This document shows, in pieces, positions 7,011 through 23,016 of a stretch of 24,888 bases of DNA (within the stretch, counting starts at the first letter, position 1; every line of letters begins with the position of its first letter). The stretch spans positions 1 through 24,888 of the IMG/VR virus record IMGVR_UViG_3300047357_001637. One strand, 5' to 3'. The DNA comes from a virus. The notes under the pieces were generated by a model, which searched no databases, was not told where the DNA came from, and was given only the letters and a program-made list of their open reading frames with translations. The position numbers and the translations under genes are program-made.

Positions 7011-7756
7011 ACTGCCTTATACCTATATACTTTATACACTTTATTAAGGTCTTCGGGGGTAATAAATTCTTTTTTGGGCAAAGCGTTTATTACATGATGG
7101 TAAATTTGGTGAGACTCAATATAAATTGCGAGATGGTGGTGTTCCGAGACATTTGGAGACAGTACAAGTATATCTCCATATTTAATGTTGTGTTTATCAA
7201 CTTCCAAGAAATGATGATCAAGGGTATTAATTAATTTTTGATTAGATTCTGTTCTATGTCTAGCCCAGTTGTCAATTTTGTCGTGCAAGTTAATATTTAA
7301 TTTTAATAGAAAAAAATCTTTTACAAAAGTAATGCAATCTTGAAATGTAGGAATGAAAATTCTGCCTTTAAGGGGTCGCGGCTTATATAGTTTTGGGTAA
7401 TATAAATTATAACTTTTACTTTTTAAAGAGAAAACATAAGAAGGTAAGTTTAATGACTGAGATACTTCTTTATCTAATTCACTCAAATTTGAATCTACAT
7501 CATGATGGCTGTGAAAAAGAGAAATAATTCTTTTATCCTCATAAAGTTTATAAAATTCTGAATCAGAATAAGAAAAAAATCCCTTTTCGATAGTGTTTCT
7601 ACTTTTCATTTTAAGGAAATTGAAATCAGAAAAAGATTTATTAAAATAAAAAACCCCGCCAATCTCTTCATTTGGGTGAGAGAGGGCATGTTTAACGCAT
7701 TGGTTAAATGCATTATTTGGGCCAAGATCCAGGGAATCCTCCAAATGGTAATCCAT
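7007..7756 (-). CDS. gpK-like tail protein: JAMM protease plus NlpC/P60 peptidase
   Basis: This protein (249 residues from ATG 7756) resembles lambda gpK. The N-terminal half has a complete JAMM metalloprotease signature: a glutamate in NEEIGGVFYF (E30/E31), then HSH at 82-84, Ser 92 and Asp 95 in the spacing H-x-H-x7-S-x2-D. The C-terminal half is NlpC/P60-like, with catalytic Cys 141 in QDCITFVKDFF, His 208 in HHLAIYI, and a third polar residue in YHHVINALPKKE. NlpC/P60 enzymes cut peptidoglycan cross-link peptides, so the protein may act in cell-wall penetration or tail-tip assembly. The open frame extends upstream to 7894 but that part lies inside the gpL-like gene and lacks family character. 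ATG 7756 gives a 44-base overlap. The 3' end overlaps the next gene in ATGA. The start is less certain than the function. Confidence 0.88.
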   Translation of the reverse strand: MDYHLEDSLDLGPNNAFNQCVKHALSHPNEEIGGVFYFNKSFSDFNFLKMKSRNTIEKGFFSYSDSEFYKLYEDKRIISLFHSHHDVDSNLSELDKEVSQSLNLPSYVFSLKSKSYNLYYPKLYKPRPLKGRIFIPTFQDCITFVKDFFLLKLNINLHDKIDNWARHRTESNQKLINTLDHHFLEVDKHNIKYGDILVLSPNVSEHHHLAIYIESHQIYHHVINALPKKEFITPEDLNKVYKVYRYKAV

Positions 7757-8585
7757 AAACAGTTTCAAAAATTCCAAATCTAGCCCTGCATCCAGCAATA
7801 TTTTTAGGGCAAACATCTTGAGTCCAGCGTATTTTATCATCTTCTGGGTGAGTCGTAGTGTTATTCGCTTGACAAACATAATACTGATCTCCAATCTTAA
7901 CTCCTGTTCCTGCTGAATATGTTGTTGTTTTTGACCATTCCGAGATAGTCAGGGAATTATTGCAGGACAAAGGTTTGCCTGCTTTATCGGTGGCTGGCCC
8001 GCCCTTATAGCCGCAACCATGCTCGCTTCGATATTTCCATTGGCATGTATTGTATACAATTTTTCTAGCTGGAACTATACCACCTTCTTTTTCAAGTTTT
8101 GAATTTAATTCAAACGAAATAACATCAGGATTCTCTACCTGTTTTGAATTAATGACATAATGTTCTTTAGGGAATGACGCTTCTGATGGAGTGCCAAAAG
8201 GGTTGATGTTATTAGGGAAATTATTTCCATGCAAAAATTTAACGAATGTTTTAATTCTTATGACTTCATACCCTATGAAATCTTTAAAATATCTAGTTTT
8301 TAGACTAAAAAATGAATCCGTGTTGTCAAAAGTGATAGTTGGCCTAGGCAGAGAGTCTACGCTGAAATCAAAACCTTCAGCTTTACAGGGTATATGGAAG
8401 TATTCATATTTACCTTGAGCTTTACCATATTTTATGGATTGATTAAATCCGTTTTCCCCAGAATGGAATCTATATCTTTTTTCAGTTCCATTGCTATCTG
8501 ATATACCTTTTAATACAATCTCATACAGAACAACAAGTGTTGATGGCTGCATTTCAAAAAGTTCATTCTGGACTTGTTCTTGCAT
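7713..8585 (-). CDS. gpL-like minor tail protein with inserted CBM5/12-like module
   Basis: This 290-residue protein lies between M-like and K-like genes, as L does in lambda. Its C-terminal region has the gpL-type cysteine arrangement: C181 and C191 in NTCQWKYRSEHGCGYKG, and C259 and C266 in DVCPKNIAGCRARFG, then an LPFGGFPG end. Lambda gpL is reported to bind an iron-sulfur cluster through four C-terminal cysteines, so these four are the likely ligands. Between the two pairs lies an extra segment of about 45 residues resembling a small carbohydrate-binding module. Extra cysteines are C67, C208 and C238. The ATG at 8585 follows the M-like stop by 13 bases. The protein would sit in the tail tip below the tape measure. 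Assignment is strong by motif and position. Confidence 0.88.
   Translation of the reverse strand: MQEQVQNELFEMQPSTLVVLYEIVLKGISDSNGTEKRYRFHSGENGFNQSIKYGKAQGKYEYFHIPCKAEGFDFSVDSLPRPTITFDNTDSFFSLKTRYFKDFIGYEVIRIKTFVKFLHGNNFPNNINPFGTPSEASFPKEHYVINSKQVENPDVISFELNSKLEKEGGIVPARKIVYNTCQWKYRSEHGCGYKGGPATDKAGKPLSCNNSLTISEWSKTTTYSAGTGVKIGDQYYVCQANNTTTHPEDDKIRWTQDVCPKNIAGCRARFGIFETVYGLPFGGFPGSWPK
7812..7946 (-). other. CBM5/12-like module inserted between the gpL cysteine pairs
   Basis: Residues 214-258 read ISEWSKTTTYSAGTGVKIGD, then QYYVCQANNTTTHPEDD and KIRW. This fits the pattern W-x4-Y-x2-G-x2-V-x4-Y-x-C/A...P...W of chitin/cellulose-binding CBM5/12 modules, which occur in many phage tail proteins. 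The aromatic residues W217, Y223, Y235/Y236 and W254 are in the expected places. It probably forms a surface loop that touches a glycan. Confidence 0.6.
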
Positions 8586-10901: not shown

Positions 10902-11701
10902 TTTTTATTAATATATCCTATATATTGTAAATTAACTGACATCAAATCTTCACTAGCAGAGCTGAGCCCTTGGTTAGCTAATCTTGCATTTTTAATTGTA
11001 AAAGTTTCAATTGTAGAATTATCTATTGGATTAGAAAGAGATATTTCAATATCTTGCTGAGAAGGTTTAATGAGATATTCATTCATTTTTTTTAATTCAA
11101 AATCAGAGACTTCTAAGGTGAAGTTTGCTTCTTGAGTGATAGGGGAAGATCGATCAACTTGAACTGGGAAGGGAGACCCTATTTTATAAATAGGGGTTCT
11201 GTCAATTCTTGTTGTAAAAGCGAAATTTGTAATTCTATTTGTTTGATAACCTGAAACATTTAATGAAATAGATCCTTGATTTGGAATTTGTATTGGAGGG
11301 TGAGCATTTACACCAGAGGCGTCAATGCCAGAACCTATGTCTCCGTATACCACAATGCCCGCTTGAACCTGAGGTATCGATCCCATGCTAGCGGAAAAAG
11401 AATATTCATTTAAGTAGCCACTTTCAAATCCAAAACTTTTATCTCCATAATTAATGCTACCACTGATTGGGTGATCACCCGTGTAATTAAGCAAGGGATC
11501 TTCCCCTATAAAGTATTTAGAAATAGAAAAGTTACCAACGAGAGGGCCTTGCATGACTGGGTAGACATGACCTTGACCAATGATATTGATAGGAGCTTCC
11601 TGAACTGCATAGCTGCCTGCAATTGATGTTACTCCAGATAAAAGAACTCCAGATAAATAAAATTGTTGCTCATAATTGGATATTGAGTTTTTATCAACCA
11701 C
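10898..11701 (-). CDS. Tail structural protein, tube/distal-tail-like, paralogue 1 (GTG start)
   Basis: This 267-residue protein starts at GTG 11701, eight bases inside the end of the tape measure gene. The start is chosen because GGGAGG lies eight bases upstream, the best ribosome site in this part of the window; upstream codons of the open frame only mirror the tape-measure sequence. It is beta-rich: FYLSGVLLSGVTSI, QGPLVGNFSISKYF, YLNEYSFSASMGSIPQV, VYGDIGSG, IQIPNQGSISLNVSGY and IDRTPIYKIGSPFPVQVD are visible. Several blocks match the next gene, so the two are diverged duplicates. No enzymatic motif is seen. The fold may be a tail-tube-like beta sandwich, but that is inference from pattern and position. 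Confidence 0.82.
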   Translation of the reverse strand: MVDKNSISNYEQQFYLSGVLLSGVTSIAGSYAVQEAPINIIGQGHVYPVMQGPLVGNFSISKYFIGEDPLLNYTGDHPISGSINYGDKSFGFESGYLNEYSFSASMGSIPQVQAGIVVYGDIGSGIDASGVNAHPPIQIPNQGSISLNVSGYQTNRITNFAFTTRIDRTPIYKIGSPFPVQVDRSSPITQEANFTLEVSDFELKKMNEYLIKPSQQDIEISLSNPIDNSTIETFTIKNARLANQGLSSASEDLMSVNLQYIGYINKK

Positions 11702-14700
11702 GCAACATTCCTCCCATTCTTTTTTCTTGTGACATAACTCCGACAACTGCATCTTTAATTTTCGCAGCCATCGCTTGATCTCCAGCTTCTCCACCAGAAG
11801 TTGAAGACTCTCCGCTGGAAGAGACACTTATATTGACCGTAACATTTCCTGAAGAAGGCGAGGCTGAACCCCCTCCAGACTGATCTCCACCGACTATGCC
11901 TCCTTGATTAAATCTCATCGCATTTAATTGATCAAAGAAGCCTGGGTTTTGTTTTTCAATATTATTTACACTGGAGGCTTTTATAACATATTCTCCCCTA
12001 TCAAGCATAACTGGGCCAACTTTATCTATTCCTGCTGGACCTCTAACTTTACCGCCAGAACTCAACTCCTCATAGTTATTAAGTAGTGTGTTTCTCTTGT
12101 CGAAACTAGGGTTACTAGCCCCTTGACCCATCATATTTTCCATTATATTGGTTCCACCAGAACCTCCAAAGCTGTCAACTGAACATTGACCCCCCGCACA
12201 AGATGGGGCTACTGGACTTGCATCGGACTGAATTAATTGCTCAGCAGTTACCCTATCGACTCCAGCTCTTTTATTCGATTTATTTATTGAATTTTGATAT
12301 GCTGCAAATGCATCAGGTTTTTTCTCGCGTAGATCTCCTAAATTATTGATGCCTTGCTTATTCCATCTTTCTACAGTTTTCTCTGTGCCTCCTCGAGTTT
12401 CATACAGCCCTTTTACTCCTTTTATCATTTGATTAAATCCAGCAGTACCCACTGCCATTGTTAGGCTATTGGTGATGCCTGACCACATCTGAGCTCTATC
12501 TTGAACTTTTTGATTTTGCTGTTGCACATCAAAGTCATATTTCTTAAGTAAATAATCTCCGTATTGCTTAGCGTAACTATCTCCGCCTTGTCTAGCTGGA
12601 GAAGACATCATGTTGCTAGATGGATCTATATTTAAATCTGAGGCAGTATTTAATCTAGCTGTTGAAGGAGCTTGCGGGGGTTCTGGATCATTGCTTGTAT
12701 CTCGATCTTCGTAATTAGCATAACCTGCACCAAAAGCTGTTCCTGTGCCTTTTGCTATTTTAGTCCAACTGGAATCATCTCCATTAGAGCTCAATGAATC
12801 ACTAGCAAAATTTTTAACCTTGTCCCATTGTTTACTTAGCCATCCTCCTTCACTCATATGTAACATTGGAGGCATTCGGCCCGCGTCGGATGTCGACATG
12901 TCAAATGAATCGTTATTTGGTTCGTCATACAATGCACTTAGAGAGCCAGTTTTATTTATTTTATCTAAAGTGCTGGGACCTAGCTTGTCAACCACTTTTT
13001 TGCGGACGACATATTCTCCAGATGTTAGCATTGCAGGAGTCTGGTTGGTTTTACCTCCCCCAGCATAGCCTCCTGAATTATAACCAACAATCCCTCCTTT
13101 ATTTAAGCCAAGAAGTTCAAAAATGCCAGTAGTAATTTGTGCCGTAGCTCTATCTAGTAATTTATCACTAATAGCCTTAGCTATACCAGCAAAAAACTGA
13201 CCAAACATATCACCCATATCTTTAGTACTGTCACCCATCATTTGCACCATATCTTTAAGGCCTTGCTTTACGCTGTCAAAAGTTGTATTTGCTAGAACTT
13301 CATTGAATCTTTCGAATTCAACATTAGCTTCTGCAATTCTTACCGCTATGGTGTCAGAAAATAATGTATTACCGTCTCCAGAGTTGTTGCTGATATTGTT
13401 CTCTTTTCTAGCTCGAGCTAATTCCACAGATGCTTCTGCCCCTCTAATAGTGTTCCCCATTTCCGCATAACCTGCGACTTTACCCGCCGCTGTTTGAACA
13501 TTAGCTGTAGCAGTTAAGCCGTCTCTTTCTACAGCATTTAAACCTTCTTGGAAAAATCCTTTAGCCTTTATTTTTTCTCTCAATCGGTCCATTTCTTCTG
13601 CGAATTTAGTTTGGCTTTGAGTTAATTGCTCGGTCGCTTCAAGGGCATAGAAGTTTGCAGCTTTATTAGCTTCGTATTGAGCTCTTAAGTTTATGGTTGA
13701 ATCGGTCAGTTTTGACACTTCGTCTTCGGTACGATAATCAAAAGTGTTTCTGCCACTTTCATCTCTTTTAAGATTTGCCTGAGTTGTCGTTGCTCGATCA
13801 GTAATTTGATTGCTGATAGCTCCTCTTTCATTTTTTACTTTTTGAGCAATAAGCTTGGCATACAATTCAGTATTCTTTCGAAGTTCTGCTTCGGCTTCTA
13901 TACGGGCACCTTGAGTGACTAGAGATTTATATTCTTGCGTTAGTTCTTCTGTAAGCGTTGTGGCCATAGCTTTTGTCGCTTTTTGTCTATATTCTTGACT
14001 ATCTAAAGTAGCAAAGGTTGCGTCAGAGAGTAGCTTTGTCATACCTGCAGTATGAGTGACTGCATCTAGTTCTTCGTGAAGCTTTTCGCTCAATAATTCA
14101 GCTGGATTGACAATATCTTGAAAGGCTGAAACTCTTTCTTTTGCGGCAGCTAAACCGCCTGCCGATAAGTTTAGTTCTTTCTCAATTGTTGATAGATTTT
14201 TCTCTCGTAGAGTTTTTTCTGCTCCAGCATTCTCTTTCTTTTCTTCTGTTATTCTTTGTTGAATACTTAAACCTAAATCAGATAGATCAGTTTGCTCATG
14301 GATAATGCCAAGTTCCTTGCTCTGTAAAACTTCTAAGTTTTCTTTTAATTTAGCAATTTTGTCTTCTGAGCTTAGCACTTTTAGCATTTTATTGTTGGCT
14401 TCGTCACTATTATGAACACCCTCAAGTTCTGAATGTAATTTTAGTAAAGTGGCTTTTACAATTTTATCTTGAGTTTCATTAGCTTTTCTTGCTAAAGCTT
14501 CTCTTGTTGAGATTAAGTTTGTGTCAAATGCGGTATCTGGATCTAGCTGTATCGTTTCAACTCGACCATCACCGCTAAACTGTGTTGTCGTAGTACTATT
14601 TAAATTTTGAAATACTTGATTTCCTTTATCTTTATTTAAGAAATCTTGTAAGATTTTTCTTCTCGCCGAAACATCTTGATTATTAATTGATTCTATTTCA

Positions 14701-17700
14701 TTATTGTATTGGTTGTCAATTTCTTTACTTTTCACTGCGAGTTGAGCTTGAACTGTTGCAGCACTGGACATAATGCCCAGGGAATCTTTAATCTTATTTC
14801 TTAGATTGTCTGAAGCTATCATATTACCTTGATCCATTTTTAATAAATTTAAACTATTTTCTGATTGCATTGTCTCAATCTTGAGATTATCTAAAATGTT
14901 AGCTCTTTCTTGAGCAATTTGTCGCAGGATATCTTGACCAAGTGTATATTTTTTTTCGGTGTCTTTCGCTGCTTTTGCGAATTCTTTAGCGAGTTCAGAA
15001 TTTTCTTTAAAAAATTCAGCCATGTCTGATAAACTCATTTCTCCATCAATTGCTGCCTGAACTTGAGCTTTTAAAACCATAGGTAGATCAGATTCTGAGA
15101 TAGATTTCTTAAATTCGTCCATTACACCCATTTCTTTCACATCAAAATATGTACTGTTATTGGTTCCGCTGTCCCTTATGGATACTCTATTGTTGCCAGG
15201 GGCCTTTCCTGGCACAGTTTTTTCTCTTTGTTGTTGAACTTCCGCGATGTCGACTGCGCCTTGTTGCACAATACCGATCAATGATTTGTAGACATTTTCA
15301 ACATCATTTTTATCACCACCAATGCCTAAATTAGCAGATCTTGCCATGGCAACTTTTTGAATCTCCTGAACAATAGGATCAGCATCTTTTCCACCAAAAC
15401 CAAGATACCCTTTTGATCCTTGAGCTGATGTAAAAGCCTGCATGCTTGCAGTTGCAGATAAAACTTGCTGGTAATCGAATGTTGCTTCCTGAAGCTTTTT
15501 CAAGCCTTCTGCCGTCCCTGAAGTCATTATCTGAATTTCGGATTCAGACAAATTTAATGCGGTAGCTAGGGTTGTAGCTTGACTGGCTAAATTACTTTCT
15601 TGTTTTGCTAATTCACCTGATAGCTTAAGTCTTTTCATTTCTCCATCAAAAGTTTGAGCTTGAGACGAATTGGATAGTTCTAATAATTGATTCCTAGTAC
15701 TCTCAATTTCTTGATGTGCGGATATTGCATTGCCCAGAGCATCAATACCTTTGGAGGTTTTTTCTGCAGATTTTCTTAAAGTATCCAGTGGGCCATCTAG
15801 TAAATCTGTATTTTCTTTTATAGATTGAAATACTGGAACAAGAGCTGAAGCTACTGCAACGAGCCCCATTAAGGGTCCTGCCGCCATCATACCCAGCCCT
15901 CCAGCCATTCCCGCCATTTTCCCCATTTTGCCGCCTTTGCCTGAATTTTTAGATTGATTATACTTATCTTTACCTCTTGCTGATAGACCTTTTGTGTCTA
16001 CAGCTGTCATCAATAACATTGCTTGCGAAACTCCTTGAACCGCACTATTCATAATTGCCATGCTTGCGCCGAAGGCTCCCATCTTTTCCGTCGCTCCTCC
16101 CATTACTCCTTCGAGTGCATATGTTATAGTGGTTAGACCGATCATTCTTGTCATTAAATCGCTGCTATTTTGTTGGACTTCATCCATTCCTTTCCCAGCA
16201 TTTGTCGAACCTTTTCCTGTAGCTTCTAGACTGTCGGCGGCATTATTGGCCGTTTTATCTAGCTTTTTCAATCCTTTTGAACTATTAAAACCGCCTCTAT
16301 TGCCAGCTGCTCCTCGCTGACCGATATAATTCGGAACGATACCTCCGCTTGCTCCATGAGTTTTTGGATCCATACCCATCGATATTGCTCGATTAACACC
16401 TTGCGAGCCAGACTTAGGTTCGTCTCGAGTATTCGCAACTAACAAGCCTGCTGGATTCTTTGGGTTCTTGAGTCTATTGTCTTGATCTATGTAAATGTCG
16501 GCGGCAGAACCTCGCTCTCTCAGAGCTTCTTTCTCTCTTGAAATAGCATCTTCTAATGGGTTTGCAAAGTTAGGAATTAAACCTTGACTTTTCCTTGGTT
16601 TATTGAGAGCCGTAAAATGATCTTGGTTGAATTTTATACCAAATCGACCATCTGTATTACCGTATGCTGGCTTCTTAATTAAGCCAGTAAGGTTACGAAA
16701 AGTTTTTGCATTAACACCGTTTGTTGCAAAGGGGTTAAATATGGTTGAACTTAAATAGGGGCTATCATTACCTACACCAACAATTTCTGCAAAGCTGGGT
16801 AATTTTTTTGTAAGATCCAGGGAGCCAGTATTTACCGCATCTTGAATCATATCTTTGCTCACTAAACCTTTAGTCATAAGCTTGTTTAAAACAAGTCGAG
16901 GCCCATGAGTGGCTCCAGAATATGCATCTGCATATTTCCAGTACCGTGTAAGATGATTAGGGCCAGTTTGACCATGTGGAGTTTTAAGTTTATTTTGATT
17001 AGGTATATTTCTTTTAGCCCACTTCGTATCGAAAAAATCTAACTCAGCTGGACCCACTCCAGTCCACCCTTTTGTTACATAAGTATTTGCAATAGCTTTT
17101 TCGTAAGCATGACCAGCTTTTGTGTTAAAAGCTATAGATTGACCTGAACTAGCTTGATCACTTATTCGTGTTACAGATAAAGAAGCGACAGGCTTTATAC
17201 TATCAAAATCTATAGAATTACCGCTTTTTGAAATGTTTGCAATTCTACCTTTGAGCTTTGTAGATTTAGGGCTTTGCCCTGGATCAGGCTTAAAAACTTG
17301 ATTGCGACCAACTTTATAAGCATGTCTTGCATCAATGAGTTGACTGCCTTTCCTACCTTTCGTTAAAGTAAATTTTTTATTAAAGTTAGGAACCAAACCA
17401 TTACTATAATGCGAATGGTTTTTGCTTCCACTTTTATCTTCAATCTTCTTCTTATCTTCAGTTATTTCTTTTATGCTATCATCAACTGCACCAGATGATT
17501 TTTGGTTTTGCCAATTTTGTGACGGAAAGTTAGGTATGAAACCTTTGGAGAATCCGCCTCTAAACATTTTAATTTCATCAAGCTCTACCATGTCACTAGA
17601 TGAAGGGTCGAGCCCCATCATTCTCAGATACTTAGATACTTGTTTTTCTTCGCCAGGTATATAATCCATTGAAGACATATACGGATCACCCTCTTCAAGC

Positions 17701-20700
17701 ATTTGCTTGTTCTCGAGGATGGATTCACTAATTTTACCAGGAGTCATGGATCCAGATATTCTCATTTTAGGTATGCGTTTACCTCGACCTCTAGCTTGAT
17801 TTAATAGTTTGTGTCCTTCCACTAATAACCTTGGTATTCTTGGGCCAACAACAAATCCAGCACTAATGTCCGTATAAGGTTTTCCCGTTTTTGCTGATTG
17901 CTCTATATCTTTATATATCCTTCTTAATTCTGAACTACCTTTTCCTCTGCTAGGACTAATCCAACTAAGATCTAATTTTCTAGGTTTATTGCTCTTTTTA
18001 TCTTGAGTTTTGTTTGATTGATTCTTAGAAGGAATCATAAAATTAGGAATATGACCTTCGCTTAACAATGAATCATAAGAGTCAACTTTATCTACAGCAA
18101 AAATTCCATGTTTATTATAATGTTTAATGTGCTTATTAACGTCTTTAATAAAAAGATTATTCGTGCTAACTGTACGTTTTGAACTAGTTACTCCTGCCAT
18201 TGCGGAATAATGCTTGGAACCTCGATTTCCAAGTCCAATAGGATTGTTTCTTTTCGCAGATTCTTTATCTTTAGAATACTGAGATCCCATTTTCTTGAAT
18301 CTGTCAAGGAATGTTTGTGCCGCTTTTGGACTTACCATTTCTGGATGAGCTTTAGACATTTCACTTAAATAATTTGCAAAACCAGAAAGACCCATATAGT
18401 CAGAAGAAAGTCCGTATGAGCCTTTTTTCTTATCTATGTCCCATGTTATTTTATTAGCAAAATTAGGAATTAACCCATTAAACAAGCCTGCTCTCTTGAC
18501 CATCTCAGGGTTGACATCTTCGTAACCAAGCGAACTTAACATCTGAGATGAGTCGTCAAGCTTTTTTCCTTGCATTTTTTGAGCTAAATCAGAGCGACCT
18601 TGCTTTGCTAGAAAATCTTCTATATACCTATCACTGTAAAGCCTAATACTTTTTGCTATTAAATTAGGAGCGGTATACTTTCCGTATTTTGATTCTATAG
18701 GTTTGCGACCAGGGCTAAAAAAGTCAATTTTGAAATTTTCATCACCTTTGCCTTTTTGCCTCCCTTTAGGCGTGTAAGCTCCAGTCCAGGTTGGGTGGTA
18801 GCCTTTTTGCTGAAGTGAAGATTTAAATAGAGCATCTTCTTGTGTATTTCCGACGATCTTATGCTGGTTCTTGTTACCAAAACCTTTTGCGGATTTTAAT
18901 TTTTTTTGTTGCGAAGCAATCGATTTCCTTTGTTTCGAGGGAATTGCGGATGATTGATCTGAGAAATATACTTGTCGCTGTAAGACATTAATACCCATTT
19001 CTTTCAACGCTGCAAATTCATCAGAATAAGTAGCGGCGCTTTTCATTACGTTATCGAGAGAAGCTTCTAAAGTTTTCCATCCTTTTATTTTTTCACCTCT
19101 AAAATTAGATGCAGTAGTCTCGGTGATCATTTTTGCTTTAGGTAGTTTTAGTATGTTTGTTCCAGCTAGTCGTTGAGCTTCTAGAGCAAAATTGGGAATA
19201 AAACCATTATAGCTATAAGGATCAAAGCCATGCTTGTCTGAGAAATCTTTTTCATATTGTTTTCCAGCTTTACTGTTTTTAGGTGGCATTATTGCAGGTT
19301 GATCCATGCCTTCAAAACTTTTTACTTCTTCGTTTTTATTATATACTACCCTGCCAAGTTTAGGTATTGACATTGTGGAAACTTGACCTGCTACATAGCC
19401 TCCTTTTTTAGCGCCCTCTCTTTCTTTGATCTCTTCTATTGGGGTCGCTTTCAATGAGTAATTAGGAATAAGTCCAGTAGCTACATTTTTACCTGTGGGT
19501 TTATTCGAACCTTTAATGCCCGCAACTGTTAAATTTCCCTGAACCCCACTAGCTCTTAAAAGTGGAGCCATATCTCGAGCTATTGATCTTTGTAATTCAA
19601 TCTGCTTTGTTTGAGATCTTAAAGTTTCTAATAAAATTTGTTCTTGTTTGTTTTTATTTCCAGCATTAGAAAGAAGTTCCGCACCTAATACTTTATTATC
19701 AATCATGGCAGCAACTATAGCTTCTTGAATTTCTAACTCTTGCTGTTTCACAGTTTTAATTTGAAGCAAATCCTGTAATGAGGTTTTTGCAAATTTTAAA
19801 GCATTAGCGAAGAGCTTACCAAAGATCAACACCAATGCAACCATGCCTGGACCAGCAAGAACATTACCCAACCCCCTAGCTATTCCTTGTGCGAAATCAG
19901 CACCCAAACTTTCACCCTCTTTTGCTCCAAGCATATCAGAAATAAATCCTAATATATTGTTAGCTGATTCTAGAAATTCTTTGAGTGCTGGAGCGATAGT
20001 TAATTCTCCAAGATTTGCCGTTAATTCTCGAACTGTTGTAAGGGTTTGGTTAGCTATAGAAGAAAGGGTTTTTTGCAGCATGGCATTTTTTTGATACGCT
20101 TCATTGCTTGCTTGGGATGAAGTCATGGTAGCCTGCGAATAAATGGAAGTTTCTTTACTCAAGTCTTTGAGCGCCGCTTTTAAAACGTTGATTTGGAAAA
20201 CTCCACCAACTTGCTCTGCTACAGCAGCTTTTGTTGAGACAGCTAAATTATCATAAGATGAAGAAAGATTTTGCAAAACAGTTAAGGCTGGCAAAGTGTT
20301 ACCTCTAATATCTCTAACGGCAATACCCAGCTCTTCCAATCTATCTAAAGTAGAACTTCTTTGAATCCTTGTGAAAATTGTCTTAAAACTATTACCAATA
20401 ACAGCACCACCTCGAGCAGTAATTTGTTGAGCTGCTGTTACTGCACCTATTAATTGATCAAAGTTTACTCCTGCATCTTGAGCTACCGCACCTGCACGAG
20501 CTAAGGCATTAACAAGGTCATCCGCACTAACCGCAAACTTAACATCGACGGCTGCCAATTTATTGATAATTTCTGTTGTAGTTAAACCTACATCGGCAAA
20601 ACCGTTGACTGCTGCAGTTAAACCTTTAACTGATTCTGCAGCCTTTAGGCCAGTAAGTCTAGTTAATATAAGAGCATCATTGGTTCGTTTTAAAGTTTCT

Positions 20701-21131
20701 TCCATTGACAAACCTTGTCGAGAAAATTCTAAAGCTGCTTCAGCTGCAACTTCTAACGATTGAGAGGTGTTTCTAGCAACATTAAATAAACCATCTCCAA
20801 ATTTTTGAAGGTTATCTGCGGTAGTTCCTAATACTGCATTGATATCTGCAAGAATTTTTTCTACTTTAGTAGCTTGAATAACAAGCTGAGCAAATGAAGC
20901 ACTAACACCCCCAATTATAGCAGCTGATGCTCCGAAGGCAATAACACGAGCATTTGATGCTTCAAGAGACTTGGTGAACTCATTTGCTTGTGCGGACATC
21001 TTGCCAAGAGGCCTGTTGAAGTCTGCAGCGTTAACTTTAATAGCAAGTCCACGGGCATTAATTTTTTTAACCGCGACCTGAACGCTAGACTCTAAGCCTA
21101 CTTGATAAGTTTTTAATCCTAATCCTTGCAT
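11694..21131 (-). CDS. Tail tape measure protein with inserted modules
   Basis: At 3145 residues this is the largest gene. Residues about 60-350 match the TP901-type tape-measure core: IIGGVSASFAQLVIQATKVE, EAALEFSRQGLS, LAAVDVKFAVSADDLV, ITARGGAVIGNSFKTIFTRI. A hydrophobic helix follows near 440. From 553 to 1602 the protein changes into Lys/Gly-rich, mostly non-helical modules marked off by eight G-x-[IV]-P-N-[FY] motifs. Two of these modules resemble PD-(D/E)XK nucleases. From about 1650 to 2650 it is long helix and coiled coil with Gly/Ala-rich hydrophobic stretches. The C-terminal 470 residues contain two GEYV boxes and Gly/Ser-rich tails. If only helical parts set length at about 1.5 angstrom per residue, the tail would be some 300 nm or more. 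ATG 21131 has AAGGA about nine bases upstream. Function in tail length and genome passage is well established for the family. Confidence 0.95.
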   Translation of the reverse strand: MQGLGLKTYQVGLESSVQVAVKKINARGLAIKVNAADFNRPLGKMSAQANEFTKSLEASNARVIAFGASAAIIGGVSASFAQLVIQATKVEKILADINAVLGTTADNLQKFGDGLFNVARNTSQSLEVAAEAALEFSRQGLSMEETLKRTNDALILTRLTGLKAAESVKGLTAAVNGFADVGLTTTEIINKLAAVDVKFAVSADDLVNALARAGAVAQDAGVNFDQLIGAVTAAQQITARGGAVIGNSFKTIFTRIQRSSTLDRLEELGIAVRDIRGNTLPALTVLQNLSSSYDNLAVSTKAAVAEQVGGVFQINVLKAALKDLSKETSIYSQATMTSSQASNEAYQKNAMLQKTLSSIANQTLTTVRELTANLGELTIAPALKEFLESANNILGFISDMLGAKEGESLGADFAQGIARGLGNVLAGPGMVALVLIFGKLFANALKFAKTSLQDLLQIKTVKQQELEIQEAIVAAMIDNKVLGAELLSNAGNKNKQEQILLETLRSQTKQIELQRSIARDMAPLLRASGVQGNLTVAGIKGSNKPTGKNVATGLIPNYSLKATPIEEIKEREGAKKGGYVAGQVSTMSIPKLGRVVYNKNEEVKSFEGMDQPAIMPPKNSKAGKQYEKDFSDKHGFDPYSYNGFIPNFALEAQRLAGTNILKLPKAKMITETTASNFRGEKIKGWKTLEASLDNVMKSAATYSDEFAALKEMGINVLQRQVYFSDQSSAIPSKQRKSIASQQKKLKSAKGFGNKNQHKIVGNTQEDALFKSSLQQKGYHPTWTGAYTPKGRQKGKGDENFKIDFFSPGRKPIESKYGKYTAPNLIAKSIRLYSDRYIEDFLAKQGRSDLAQKMQGKKLDDSSQMLSSLGYEDVNPEMVKRAGLFNGLIPNFANKITWDIDKKKGSYGLSSDYMGLSGFANYLSEMSKAHPEMVSPKAAQTFLDRFKKMGSQYSKDKESAKRNNPIGLGNRGSKHYSAMAGVTSSKRTVSTNNLFIKDVNKHIKHYNKHGIFAVDKVDSYDSLLSEGHIPNFMIPSKNQSNKTQDKKSNKPRKLDLSWISPSRGKGSSELRRIYKDIEQSAKTGKPYTDISAGFVVGPRIPRLLVEGHKLLNQARGRGKRIPKMRISGSMTPGKISESILENKQMLEEGDPYMSSMDYIPGEEKQVSKYLRMMGLDPSSSDMVELDEIKMFRGGFSKGFIPNFPSQNWQNQKSSGAVDDSIKEITEDKKKIEDKSGSKNHSHYSNGLVPNFNKKFTLTKGRKGSQLIDARHAYKVGRNQVFKPDPGQSPKSTKLKGRIANISKSGNSIDFDSIKPVASLSVTRISDQASSGQSIAFNTKAGHAYEKAIANTYVTKGWTGVGPAELDFFDTKWAKRNIPNQNKLKTPHGQTGPNHLTRYWKYADAYSGATHGPRLVLNKLMTKGLVSKDMIQDAVNTGSLDLTKKLPSFAEIVGVGNDSPYLSSTIFNPFATNGVNAKTFRNLTGLIKKPAYGNTDGRFGIKFNQDHFTALNKPRKSQGLIPNFANPLEDAISREKEALRERGSAADIYIDQDNRLKNPKNPAGLLVANTRDEPKSGSQGVNRAISMGMDPKTHGASGGIVPNYIGQRGAAGNRGGFNSSKGLKKLDKTANNAADSLEATGKGSTNAGKGMDEVQQNSSDLMTRMIGLTTITYALEGVMGGATEKMGAFGASMAIMNSAVQGVSQAMLLMTAVDTKGLSARGKDKYNQSKNSGKGGKMGKMAGMAGGLGMMAAGPLMGLVAVASALVPVFQSIKENTDLLDGPLDTLRKSAEKTSKGIDALGNAISAHQEIESTRNQLLELSNSSQAQTFDGEMKRLKLSGELAKQESNLASQATTLATALNLSESEIQIMTSGTAEGLKKLQEATFDYQQVLSATASMQAFTSAQGSKGYLGFGGKDADPIVQEIQKVAMARSANLGIGGDKNDVENVYKSLIGIVQQGAVDIAEVQQQREKTVPGKAPGNNRVSIRDSGTNNSTYFDVKEMGVMDEFKKSISESDLPMVLKAQVQAAIDGEMSLSDMAEFFKENSELAKEFAKAAKDTEKKYTLGQDILRQIAQERANILDNLKIETMQSENSLNLLKMDQGNMIASDNLRNKIKDSLGIMSSAATVQAQLAVKSKEIDNQYNNEIESINNQDVSARRKILQDFLNKDKGNQVFQNLNSTTTTQFSGDGRVETIQLDPDTAFDTNLISTREALARKANETQDKIVKATLLKLHSELEGVHNSDEANNKMLKVLSSEDKIAKLKENLEVLQSKELGIIHEQTDLSDLGLSIQQRITEEKKENAGAEKTLREKNLSTIEKELNLSAGGLAAAKERVSAFQDIVNPAELLSEKLHEELDAVTHTAGMTKLLSDATFATLDSQEYRQKATKAMATTLTEELTQEYKSLVTQGARIEAEAELRKNTELYAKLIAQKVKNERGAISNQITDRATTTQANLKRDESGRNTFDYRTEDEVSKLTDSTINLRAQYEANKAANFYALEATEQLTQSQTKFAEEMDRLREKIKAKGFFQEGLNAVERDGLTATANVQTAAGKVAGYAEMGNTIRGAEASVELARARKENNISNNSGDGNTLFSDTIAVRIAEANVEFERFNEVLANTTFDSVKQGLKDMVQMMGDSTKDMGDMFGQFFAGIAKAISDKLLDRATAQITTGIFELLGLNKGGIVGYNSGGYAGGGKTNQTPAMLTSGEYVVRKKVVDKLGPSTLDKINKTGSLSALYDEPNNDSFDMSTSDAGRMPPMLHMSEGGWLSKQWDKVKNFASDSLSSNGDDSSWTKIAKGTGTAFGAGYANYEDRDTSNDPEPPQAPSTARLNTASDLNIDPSSNMMSSPARQGGDSYAKQYGDYLLKKYDFDVQQQNQKVQDRAQMWSGITNSLTMAVGTAGFNQMIKGVKGLYETRGGTEKTVERWNKQGINNLGDLREKKPDAFAAYQNSINKSNKRAGVDRVTAEQLIQSDASPVAPSCAGGQCSVDSFGGSGGTNIMENMMGQGASNPSFDKRNTLLNNYEELSSGGKVRGPAGIDKVGPVMLDRGEYVIKASSVNNIEKQNPGFFDQLNAMRFNQGGIVGGDQSGGGSASPSSGNVTVNISVSSSGESSTSGGEAGDQAMAAKIKDAVVGVMSQEKRMGGMLRG
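11945..12057 (-). repeat. Tape-measure GEYV box, copy 2
   Basis: This encodes GGKVRGPAGIDKVGPVMLDR, then GEYVIKASSVNNIEKQNPGF. It shares the order G-G-x...P-[AV]-M-L-x2-G-E-Y-V-[VI]-[RK]-x2-x-V with copy 1, about 345 residues earlier. Two such boxes may pack against each other or against tip proteins at the end of the tube. Confidence 0.7.
12955..13100 (-). repeat. Tape-measure GEYV box, copy 1
   Basis: This encodes GGIVGYNSGGYAGGGKTNQ, then TPAMLTSGEYVVRKKVVDKL and DKINK. A glycine-rich turn followed by P-[AV]-M-L-x2-G-E-Y-V-[IV] and a short helix is a recurring element near the C-terminus of tape-measure proteins. A second copy lies at 11945-12057. Confidence 0.7.
16584..17381 (-). other. 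Tape-measure module with degenerate PD-(D/E)XK-like motif
   Basis: Residues 1251-1516 lie between the sixth and seventh boundary motifs. HAYEKAIANTY (E1344), AELDFFD (D1365) and KYADAYSG (D1402-A-Y1404) line up with the E, D and E-x-K positions of the other nuclease-like module. The catalytic lysine position is occupied by tyrosine. Both modules have NT at the start of the helix and a DFF strand, so they look like diverged copies. This one may be structural, DNA-binding or inactive. Confidence 0.45.
18475..19190 (-). other. Tape-measure module with complete PD-(D/E)XK-like motif
   Basis: Residues 650-885 lie between the second and third boundary motifs. Within them E765 (QEDALF, helix), D803 (FKIDFF, strand) and E813-S-K815 (PIESKYG, next strand) give the E...D...E-x-K order of PD-(D/E)XK nucleases. 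A helix with NLIAKSIRLYSDRYIEDFL follows. The family is very diverse and short motifs can arise by chance, but the strand-turn-strand setting fits. If active it would cut DNA; timing relative to ejection is unknown. Confidence 0.5.
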
Positions 21132-21161: not shown

Positions 21162-22166
21162 TTATTTTTTTGGAATGCCGCTTAATTCCATCAAATCTTC
21201 CATACTGAGAGAGCCTCCTCTGTCTTTCGCGGCCTTTTGCAAAGAAACTCCTGCTTTATCAGAAGGTCTTTCAAGTCCAGCATATTCATAATCCTCTTCG
21301 GATGCTCCAAACAATGTTGCTCCATCTTGATCTTTATCAAGTTTGCTCTTCATTTTTTCCTTCGCCTCATCACTGATACTTCCATAATCTAATAATGCCT
21401 GAGGATCTTTTTTGATTTTCTCTGGAATATGTTTATTATTTTCAAATATATTTTTGAATATTTTTGTATATACAATAAGCTTGAGTTGATTGTAAGTTAA
21501 GCGAACAACTGGGCTACCAAAAAAGCCAACAGTATCATCACTGAAAGGAAAGTAAATATAATAAAAATCCTGAAGAATCATTTCTTGTATTTTTAATTCT
21601 TCAAAAGCAAGAAAAGTTTCATTGTATGTTGAGATTAATTTTTGAACTTCTTCGGGGTAAAGCTCATTAAAATCGTCTTCTTCTGGGAATAATTTATTTT
21701 CTAGTTTTGGATCTGTATAAAATGATTTAATTATATAATAATCGTTTGACCTTTTGTCTGCATATGCTTCAGCATTAACTCCCATTAATTCAGTTTTTTT
21801 CTGCTGAAGTTTATTAATTTTATCCCGTGTTTCATTGATAGTTTTATTTTGCCTATCAATATCAGATTTTAAAACAAGCTGGGTTTTATTAGCTTGTAGC
21901 TGACTAATAAAAAGGTCTAGCCTTTTAATCTCGTCTTCGTCAGAATCGCTCCAATGACCATCTTTTTTAAGGGCAGCCAAAACTTCCTCTTCAGTAGGTA
22001 TACCTCTCTTTATAGCATCAGTTAAATAGTTGGATCGTATTTCATCGATGTCAACTTGATCGAGAGATGTTAAATGTTTTATATAATAAGTTTGACCGTC
22101 TACCTTTGCTTTTGTGTGACCTTCTACGATCTCCTTGAAGATCTTCCTGTAGTCAGTAATTTCCAC
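21162..22166 (-). CDS. Charged protein in tail-chaperone position, 334 residues (GTG start)
   Basis: I do not recognise the family with certainty. The gene lies directly upstream of the tape measure, where tail assembly chaperones are usually encoded. The N-terminus reads VDGQTYYIKHLTSLDQVDID. Residues about 75-128 form a charged coiled coil (DEIKRLDLFISQLQANKTQL and KTINETRDKINKLQQKKTEL). The middle is acidic and aromatic (DFYYIYFPFSDD, RLTYNQLKLIVYTKIFKNIF), and the C-terminus has a Gly/Ser-rich tail. The start is GTG 22166, one base after the previous stop, with GAAGAAGG about 11 bases upstream. The gap to the tape-measure ATG is 30 bases. A chaperone or tape-measure-binding role is inferred from position only; it is longer than lambda gpG or gpGT. 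Confidence 0.85.
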   Translation of the reverse strand: MEITDYRKIFKEIVEGHTKAKVDGQTYYIKHLTSLDQVDIDEIRSNYLTDAIKRGIPTEEEVLAALKKDGHWSDSDEDEIKRLDLFISQLQANKTQLVLKSDIDRQNKTINETRDKINKLQQKKTELMGVNAEAYADKRSNDYYIIKSFYTDPKLENKLFPEEDDFNELYPEEVQKLISTYNETFLAFEELKIQEMILQDFYYIYFPFSDDTVGFFGSPVVRLTYNQLKLIVYTKIFKNIFENNKHIPEKIKKDPQALLDYGSISDEAKEKMKSKLDKDQDGATLFGASEEDYEYAGLERPSDKAGVSLQKAAKDRGGSLSMEDLMELSGIPKK

Positions 22167-22167
22167 A

Positions 22168-23016
22168 TTATAAAGTACCTTCTTCTATGTCTTTTTCTAA
22201 ATTCTCGAAATCTTCTTTGGTAGCTGAAACACTAAAATACCAAAAACTAACGAAAGCCGTTAACTTATCGTAAACTAAATCAAGCAATGGATCCTCATCC
22301 TCTTCTAGGTCATAAAGATAGTTTAACTTATCATCAAAAGTATCGCCCTTGAAATAAGGTTCTAATTCTCCTTTTTCATTTTCTAAGTTAGTAAGAGATA
22401 ATAAATACCAAGAGATGACTTTAGTTTGAGCTTTACTGTCTGCAGTATGATTTAATAGTGCAGAAAAGTTGGTCTCAGTTTTTGCAATATCTCTTCTTAA
22501 TTGAGCCATTTCTTCAACTGTCTCTTTTTGCTTATCTGAGAATTTATTTTTATCGCTAATTTTCCACGATGTAAATTCTGTTTGGAGTTGGCCAAGTCTG
22601 CCATACATCTCCGCTAAAGCTTTTGCTTCCGCTTCACTCATGATACCTCCAGTATCGCTATACTTATTAAGGAGCATTGCTTTGGTTAAGATGCCATCTT
22701 TAACACAGCGACTCATCTCAATACTGTATTCCATATCCGCTTCTTCCATTTGGCGGCGAGTTGGCTGTTTAATCACAAAAGAATAAGGGGCATTTTCTTT
22801 TTCTTTACGGGTTTCTTGTACAATTTGGGTTTCTGTTACTTTTTGTTTTTCAGTCTCAACATACTTTTCTTCTTGCCCTTCAGCATTTTTGCGAGTCTTT
22901 TCGACTTCTACATCTTTTTCAACTTCGACTTTTTTCTCAACATCGACTTGTTTTTCGATCTCTTCTTCTAAGAAGACTTTAAATCTATAAATTTCTTTAT
23001 TTGTTTTTGTATACAT
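22168..23016 (-). CDS. Hypothetical tail-assembly-region protein with Glu/Lys/Val repeats, 282 residues
   Basis: I do not recognise this gene. The N-terminal 75 residues are very charged, with short repeats such as VDVEKKVEVEKDVEVEKT followed by ETEKQKVTETQIVQETRK. Then comes a block with PYSFVIKQPTRRQMEEADME and CVKDGILTKAMLLNKYSD, a helical centre with EMAQLRRDIAKTETNF, and an acidic C-terminus with YLYDLEEDEDPLLDLVYDKL. It has no signal peptide or obvious catalytic motif. ATG 23016 is preceded by AAAGGA with eight bases between. It ends one base before the 334-residue gene, so the two are probably translationally coupled and may act together, possibly like the G and GT pair, though no classic frameshift site is seen. 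Confidence 0.85.
   Translation of the reverse strand: MYTKTNKEIYRFKVFLEEEIEKQVDVEKKVEVEKDVEVEKTRKNAEGQEEKYVETEKQKVTETQIVQETRKEKENAPYSFVIKQPTRRQMEEADMEYSIEMSRCVKDGILTKAMLLNKYSDTGGIMSEAEAKALAEMYGRLGQLQTEFTSWKISDKNKFSDKQKETVEEMAQLRRDIAKTETNFSALLNHTADSKAQTKVISWYLLSLTNLENEKGELEPYFKGDTFDDKLNYLYDLEEDEDPLLDLVYDKLTAFVSFWYFSVSATKEDFENLEKDIEEGTL

Follow-up and report, generated by a model that had tools for sequence, protein, structure and literature searches.

A nuclease-like module in a phage tape measure protein is one of several exchangeable cassettes set between conserved joints

We examined a 24,888-nucleotide stretch of viral DNA (positions 1 to 24,888 of IMG/VR record IMGVR_UViG_3300047357_001637; hereafter the window), in which one uninterrupted frame on the minus strand encodes a large tape measure protein (TMP). 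TMPs are usually regarded as rulers and DNA conduits. The gene product was identified by its matches to PhageMin_Tail in Pfam (E 5.2e-22) and, in PHROGs, to phrog_4211, 'tail length tape measure protein' (E 1.5e-40), as well as to phrog_14917 and phrog_28, and the gene sits in a lambda-like tail block with Phage_tail_L, Phage_min_tail, Phage-tail_3 and NlpC/P60 downstream. A first-pass annotation of the window had noticed a nuclease-like module inside this protein, with residues E765, D803, E813 and K815 in PD-(D/E)XK order. Its observation is confirmed: the four residues lie where it had placed them, and window 18477-19190 reads in frame as TMP residues 648-885 (the start differing by at most 2 bases from the earlier one), so that the module is carried in the tail because it is part of the TMP itself. 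What had been missed is that the module is one among several exchangeable cassettes in a 'cargo bay' of the TMP, and the architecture of this bay is the more important result.

The bay follows a common layout, in which a conserved N-terminal TMP part is followed by one to about ten cassettes set between short joints, and then by a long C-terminal part. The joint consensus is G-[FLYH]-[IV]-P-N-[FY], and the window TMP holds eight copies of it in a bay spanning 16326-19469. The TMP N-terminus found 10 relatives in IMG/VR, and a 12-sequence profile of it found at least 586 in the viral collection, of which the best 80, that is the nearest, were kept. Five TMPs (L020, L022, L024, L025 and L027) were found by a joint-like DNA pattern and the others by N-terminus or module. 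Removal of exact containments, with the window replacing locus L001, reduced 105 TMP frames to 86 distinct ones including the window's, among which near-identical pairs remain (for example L033/L034, L037/L038, L057/L059 and L060/L061); 53 of the 86 are complete frames and 78 hold the end of the bay within their locus.

Across these 86 TMPs there are 522 joints inside bays and 3 elsewhere, with 9.3 expected in shuffled TMPs. The contrast between inside and outside is partly by construction, because the joints define the bay, but the excess over shuffles is not. PN is fixed by the search pattern; of the positions near it, the one two residues ahead of [IV] is G in 92% of cases and the next is one of F, L, Y and H in 86%, while [IV] is kept in 96% and [FY] in 99%, with A as the following residue in 54%. 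Searching with a DNA pattern for GFIPNFA gave at least 120 viral stretches, and the 80 of these that were examined yielded 76 frames, 48 matching the TMP N-terminus, 22 other TMP parts and 6 neither (four of them shorter than 150 aa). Bays commonly open with a head module (47/86) and close with a tail module (60/86), as labelled by crude regular expressions. An alternative reading of the locus as a homing endonuclease or intein was dropped, since the frame is uninterrupted and the neighbouring cassettes bear the same joints.

With cassettes shorter than 40 aa excluded, 420 cassettes were kept, and a 6-sequence profile of the nuclease-like module matched 31 of them at E <= 1e-6, the window's included, one each in 31 of the 86 TMPs. 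D803, E813 and K815 are each kept in all 31 modules, and position 765 is acidic throughout, Glu in 29 and Asp in 2; this conservation is beyond chance. Among 28 non-redundant modules (all below 90% identity; mean 29%, pairwise range 16-89%), invariance is confined to six of 235 columns (residues 649-883), namely G713, D803, E813, K815, K827 and S828, so that three of the six belong to the motif, and the E765 column holds 27 Glu and 1 Asp. This conservation bears on the possibility that a nuclease fold was retained in the tail to grip DNA or as a structural part, with no catalysis. Such a role could draw on the invariant K827 and S828 to bind DNA and would suit the failure of Foldseek to find a standard nuclease, but the motif D, E and K are invariant at this low mean identity and a purely structural role would not need them; we therefore consider it improbable, the least probable of the alternatives discussed here.

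An AlphaFold2 (AF2) model of the module built with 28 sequences (pLDDT 91.2, pTM 0.88; pLDDT 65.6 with 6 sequences) places E765 (model position 120) on helix 111-131, D803 (158) directly ahead of strand 159-160, E813 and K815 (168 and 170) on strand 167-170, and K827/S828 on helix 176-184, broadly the strand-turn-strand setting that the first-pass annotation had described. We then compared the module by hhalign with alignments of DUF4143, UPF0102 and Mrr, which we take to be PD-(D/E)XK families, and with GNAT as a control, the controls also being run with the reversed module. The DUF4143 (PF13635) alignment comprised 23 sequences, 7 of 30 loci having been omitted, as was 1 of 30 for Mrr, as short or weak matches. 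The module core aligned to DUF4143 with a probability of 54% and E 1.3e-4, its E765, D803, E813 and K815 falling on the family's Glu, Asp and ExK, and the whole module gave 32% and E 5e-4. UPF0102 gave 1.7% and E 0.03 in the same register for the core, and 0.056 out of register for the whole module, and Mrr gave E 0.065 with only the E and D aligned. Reversed modules scored E 0.08-0.7 against the four families, and GNAT 0.45 (core) and 0.095 (whole). Only DUF4143 stands above the controls; the module is best read as a distant PD-(D/E)XK member, which falls short of proof. In our judgement residues 649-885 very probably form a PD-(D/E)XK-type domain, and they would represent a new, metal-dependent nuclease family whose PD-(D/E)XK membership is likely but not proven.

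A number of results weigh against this assignment. The PD-(D/E)XK core runs helix-strand-strand-strand-helix-strand; the AF2 model shows the first helix, the strands with the one bearing ExK, and the second helix in that sequence, and no fourth core strand follows the K827/S828 helix in the AF2 model, where only helices are seen; N-terminal strands 39-46 or 71-79 of the model may stand in for it. Foldseek with the pLDDT 91 model found no match at E <= 0.001 in PDB or BFVD (a search with the first 6-sequence model, pLDDT 66, returned noise only and was discarded), and the best VIA-align Z was 2.4, to unrelated chains, with no PD-(D/E)XK match; such negatives are still compatible with membership. 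The three known families recover one another at 82-92% in hhalign, above the 54% between module and DUF4143, and the UPF0102 and Mrr scores lie near control level. The single module sequence had no trusted match in Pfam, NCBIfam, PHROGs or PDB, and the best Pfam match among the 28 members was Phage_ASH (E 6.8e-4, two members), which is unrelated to nucleases. The fold named in the first-pass annotation is thus borne out in part: motif conservation, secondary-structure placement and the in-register DUF4143 match speak for it, and the structure searches and a fourth strand not at its usual place speak against it. The last two points would also suit another metal-dependent or Lys/Glu-based enzyme whose E, D and ExK spacing mimics the motif. 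The in-register alignment to DUF4143 argues against such mimicry, as does a weak match of one of the 28 members to the restriction-endonuclease-like PF21111 (E 0.032), and we hold mimicry to be quite unlikely, if a better candidate than a non-catalytic role.

The 420 cassettes fell into 84 BLAST clusters, and close relatives carry differing sets of them. Locus L064, for example, reads NUC-SNase-c2-c33, whereas L059 reads NUC-c1b-c2-ART-c16, with N-termini 82% identical. For TMPs with N-termini 70-97% identical and whole bays (112 pairs), the mean Jaccard index of cassette content was 0.34, with the same set in 4 pairs and nothing shared in 16; with cut bays included (157 pairs) it was 0.33. 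Vertical descent is also present, because nuclease-like module identity correlates with N-terminus identity (Spearman 0.54, 465 pairs).

Several of the sister cassettes can be named from profiles. A GNAT cassette (L040, E 5.4e-5) and an SNase cassette (L036, E 7.7e-6) both passed the Pfam cut-off, the L064 SNase matched thermonuclease structures (best 5.9e-4) and the phrog_452 endonuclease, and the HAD-like cassette of L058 matched the phrog_415 polynucleotide kinase (1.3e-5). The catalytic residues of staphylococcal nuclease are Asp, Arg, Asp, Glu and Arg, and at least 4 of 5 SNase cassettes retain them, as at least 9 of 10 GNAT cassettes do their own catalytic positions. SNase stands alongside the nuclease-like module in L036, L064, L068, L072 and L039; in the window TMP, only nuclease-like cassettes were recognised. 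The ADP-ribosyltransferase (ART) signature is an R-S-E pattern, and at least 9 of 10 ART-like cassettes (such as L037:9319-9993 and L004 residues 1668-2018) retain YRG, two Ser and ExE, with no profile support found for the name. Other cassettes look kinase-like by eye, again without profile support (L022:2610-3206, L058:6996-7766 and the minus strand of L301; GDLHGSN / RDVHSGN; GPSGSGKTT), and in L071:13160-13804 the stretch IEGNHRVAA is, by eye, presumably ParB/sulfiredoxin-like. PDB searches with the ART-like, kinase-like and ParB-like cassettes gave nothing below E 0.5, so these names rest on motifs recognised by eye. PADLOC and NCBIfam searches with 69 cassette representatives (each at least 90 aa long; cluster 0 and clusters confined to the window were excluded) gave scattered weak matches, the best being SNc+LTD at 1.8e-4, which were not used.

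A second nuclease-like family is formed by a large cassette of 33 TMPs, the modules having been chosen by architecture as the longest of each. Its assignment is by motif: G is kept in 33, E in 32, D in 31, [DE] in 31 and K in 32 of the 33. The pattern, G..FE/D/[DE]xK, occurs in L020, L022, L025, L027, L075, L085, L091 and 26 others, usually as the sole large cassette of shorter TMPs. As a regular expression it matched 13/33 modules and 41/1650 shuffles, the alignment columns being the better evidence. No support for this family came from hhalign, in which its highest-scoring partner was the window's module (4.5%, E 0.009, 16 columns aligned), followed by 0.024 for DUF4143, 0.21 for Mrr and 0.63 for UPF0102, with 0.018 for a reversed-against-reversed control. 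The window carries a further nuclease-like cassette at 16584-17381, in which the motif G, [FY]E, D, D, GH, K is kept in 11-12 of 12 aligned modules (the rows of the window and L004 having been added by eye) and no clear ExK is seen; judging by this motif, it would be a variant or degenerate nuclease.

Altogether, a nuclease-like cassette of either family is present in 64 of the 86 TMPs (31 + 33), and 22 were assigned to neither. These figures bear on whether the module is an active PD-(D/E)XK nuclease that serves the phage's own DNA, through end trimming or nicking, circularisation, recombination or maturing of a tail-held end. The leading DNA end in siphoviruses lies near the TMP, and two nuclease-like kinds in 64 of 86 TMPs might be expected of a needed function. 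However, the adjoining cassettes vary and include SNase, GNAT and ART-like types, the two apparently distinct nuclease-like families alternate, 22 TMPs fall in neither set, and the related TMP of L118 is without joints. We regard a role in the phage's own DNA metabolism as unlikely, though the strongest of the three alternatives.

Our preferred reading, which we think probable, is that the module is a PD-(D/E)XK-type nuclease cassette in a TMP delivery string and acts in the host after infection. In the mechanism that we infer, the TMP would exit the tail before or with the DNA, its cassettes would perhaps be freed by cutting at the joints and would then act in the host, where the nuclease would most likely cut host or rival DNA (chromosome, plasmid or prophage) and sister cassettes in relatives would modify host proteins. 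First entry into the cell and attack on host DNA, a plasmid or a prophage, as the first-pass annotation had suggested, would be plausible. The joints seem too conserved for a plain linker and may be sites of cutting or docking. A hydrophobic peak lies within 250 aa ahead of the bay in 77/86 TMPs, within 300 aa after it in 36/79 and inside it in 5/86, and during injection the lambda TMP becomes labelled when the inner-membrane protein ManZ carries the labelling fusion (PMC13190303). Cassette delivery would fit with a bay that is soluble, lies close to membrane segments and belongs to a protein reaching the inner membrane.

More tentatively, and with rather less confidence than for the module, we suggest that across a large uncultured phage clade the TMP may have become a polymorphic array of effector cassettes encoded in frame between the fixed joints (several families of nucleases, SNase, ADP-ribosyltransferase, acetyltransferase, kinase and phosphatase), swapped by recombination and freed one by one by site-specific joint cleavage while crossing the envelope, ahead of the genome. 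Two further results count against our preferred reading. The TMP of L118 (L118:3943-6252; 49% identical) keeps a head module, but its 770 aa covered show neither joint nor cassette, perhaps an empty bay; the bay is therefore not universal. In addition, no close TMP relative was found among 50,697 phage records, the best matches listed being about 24-29% identical. Joints were also absent from four distant Firmicutes TMPs (25-27% identical) and from the TMPs of the four named phages that were checked out of 119 listed records and two further ones (Stills, Phass-1 with TAG read as Q, BUCT082 and IME347). The tail module (window 16320-16583) had as its only phage-collection matches the TMP of Escherichia phage vB_EcoS_IME347 (E 0.9, two records), which may be chance.

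Searching genome contigs with the TMP N-terminus gave 12 loci: five contigs of metagenome-assembled genomes (MAGs) with joints (L112, L113 and L115-L117), L114 cut at its first 'GLVPN', L119 cut after 265 aa, the jointless L118 and the four distant Firmicutes TMPs. The bins of L112-L119 are Flavobacteriales/Flavobacteriaceae (3/8), Halobacteriovorax (2, one MAG), Neomarinimicrobiota, Verrucomicrobiales and Proteobacteria, a weak hint of host. With the single module sequence no close relative was found in viral contigs or phage records (best E 2), nor did a pattern scan of genome contigs find one.

The features of the TMP are collected in Table 1. Of its neighbours, the two minus-strand genes upstream (21162-22166, 334 aa; 22168-23016, 282 aa) have no trusted family, and similar-sized reading frames lie upstream in L002, L007, L008 and L009. 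Window 7007-7894 is a tail-tip protein that matches NlpC/P60 (E 1.1e-5) and, weakly, JAB (0.014), and a JAB protease, if present, would be one candidate for the joint cutter.

Table 1. Coordinates of the tape measure protein gene and of the elements within it.
Feature	Window position	Strand	Basis
TMP gene, 3145 aa	11694..21131	-	PhageMin_Tail; phrog_4211/14917/28
Conserved TMP N-terminal region, residues 37-400	19932..21023	-	Pfam/PHROGs matches; 12-sequence alignment
Hydrophobic segment, residues 420-445, ~110 residues ahead of joint 1	19797..19874	-	Kyte-Doolittle scan
Joint 1, IPNY 555-558 (GLIPNY)	19458..19469	-	
Head module, residues 559-642, first bay element	19206..19457	-	label 'h', crude regular expression
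Joint 2, IPNF 645-648 (GFIPNFA)	19188..19199	-	
Nuclease-like module, residues 649-885	18477..19187	-	31 homologous modules; AF2 pLDDT 91.2, pTM 0.88
Putative active-site core: E765 (18837-18839), D803 (18723-18725), E813 (18693-18695), K815 (18687-18689), K827/S828	18648..18839	-	
Joint 3, IPNF 888-891 (GLIPNFA)	18459..18470	-	
Cassette, residues 892-1027, no function assigned	18051..18458	-	cluster 12: 5 modules in 5 TMPs
Joint 4, IPNF 1028-1031	18039..18050	-	
Cassette, residues 1032-1198	17538..18038	-	cluster 81, BLAST singleton among 420 modules
Joint 5, IPNF 1199-1202	17526..17537	-	
Short segment, residues 1203-1246, between joints 5 and 6	17394..17525	-	cluster 82
Joint 6, VPNF 1247-1250	17382..17393	-	
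Second nuclease-like cassette, residues 1251-1516 (G..[FY]E ... D ... D ... GH ... K)	16584..17381	-	12-module alignment, window's row added by eye
Joint 7, IPNF 1519-1522	16566..16577	-	
Tail module, residues 1523-1596, last bay element	16344..16565	-	label 't', crude regular expression
Joint 8, VPNY 1599-1602	16326..16337	-	
Post-bay TMP body, residues 1603-3145	11697..16325	-	reading frame

With joints read in 86 distinct TMPs and at least 586 N-terminus relatives in the viral collection, the TMPs described here look like carriers of exchangeable enzymes. The short fixed joint that accompanies each cassette supplies a rule, applicable to sequence alone, for finding effectors that phages may deliver, and the module family offers a likely new family of nucleases. 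The variety of cassettes points to the tail as a means of bringing weapons into the bacterium, and entry of the TMP into the cell and its role there become directly testable by tracking one cassette.

It is useful to set these findings beside known systems. DUF4143 (PF13635, C-terminal part) and UPF0102/YraN (PF02021) share with the module a helix Glu, an Asp before a strand and ExK on the next strand, but they are cellular families, and the module differs in that a long, variable insert separates E765 from D803 and that it lacks a C-terminal fourth strand. Polyvalent proteins combine several unrelated enzyme activities in one phage polypeptide and are predicted to be injected with the DNA (PMC5512222), and TMPs such as that of L064 likewise join disparate enzymes in one phage polypeptide. 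Polyvalent proteins, however, are tied to capsid packaging or mobile-element transfer, and the available portion of that paper describes no 'tape' and no joint motif (PMC5512222). The ADP-ribosyltransferase Alt of phage T4, also described there (PMC5512222), is a virion-carried enzyme injected to alter the host but, unlike the TMP cassettes, is a separate head protein.

In MuF toxins of temperate phages, a phage protein for which delivery to the host is proposed bears toxin domains that vary and include nucleases (PMC5576092). There, the MuF domain lies near portal and terminase genes, the toxin is C-terminal and a small reading frame usually follows (PMC5576092), whereas the TMP holds an internal tail array. 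Across the whole window TMP we found no MuF domain in Pfam at E <= 1, only PhageMin_Tail and TPR_22 being listed, and no MuF-type small immunity frame directly downstream, where the next minus-strand frame of at least 80 aa encodes 309 aa and overlaps the TMP end. Tme and Sle1 are TMP-related, modular, reconfigurable effectors in the tail tube of contractile injection systems (PMC13277306). They belong to actinobacterial contractile nanomachines and consist of a coiled coil and a C-terminal domain, in contrast to the internal multi-cassette bay in a phage's own TMP described here; no contractile sheath was found among the scanned reading frames of the window, which is part of a genome and has lambda-like tail genes. 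Among the papers listed in the literature searched, from which subscription papers and bioRxiv were outside the scope, we found no report of a phage whose own TMP holds such an array inside it, bounded by joints, so that this is no proof of absence. The idea of enzymes carried on a delivered structural protein is already known from MuF toxins and polyvalent proteins, and what appears to be new, set against the accessible parts of those accounts, is their arrangement as an internal, joint-bounded array within the phage TMP.

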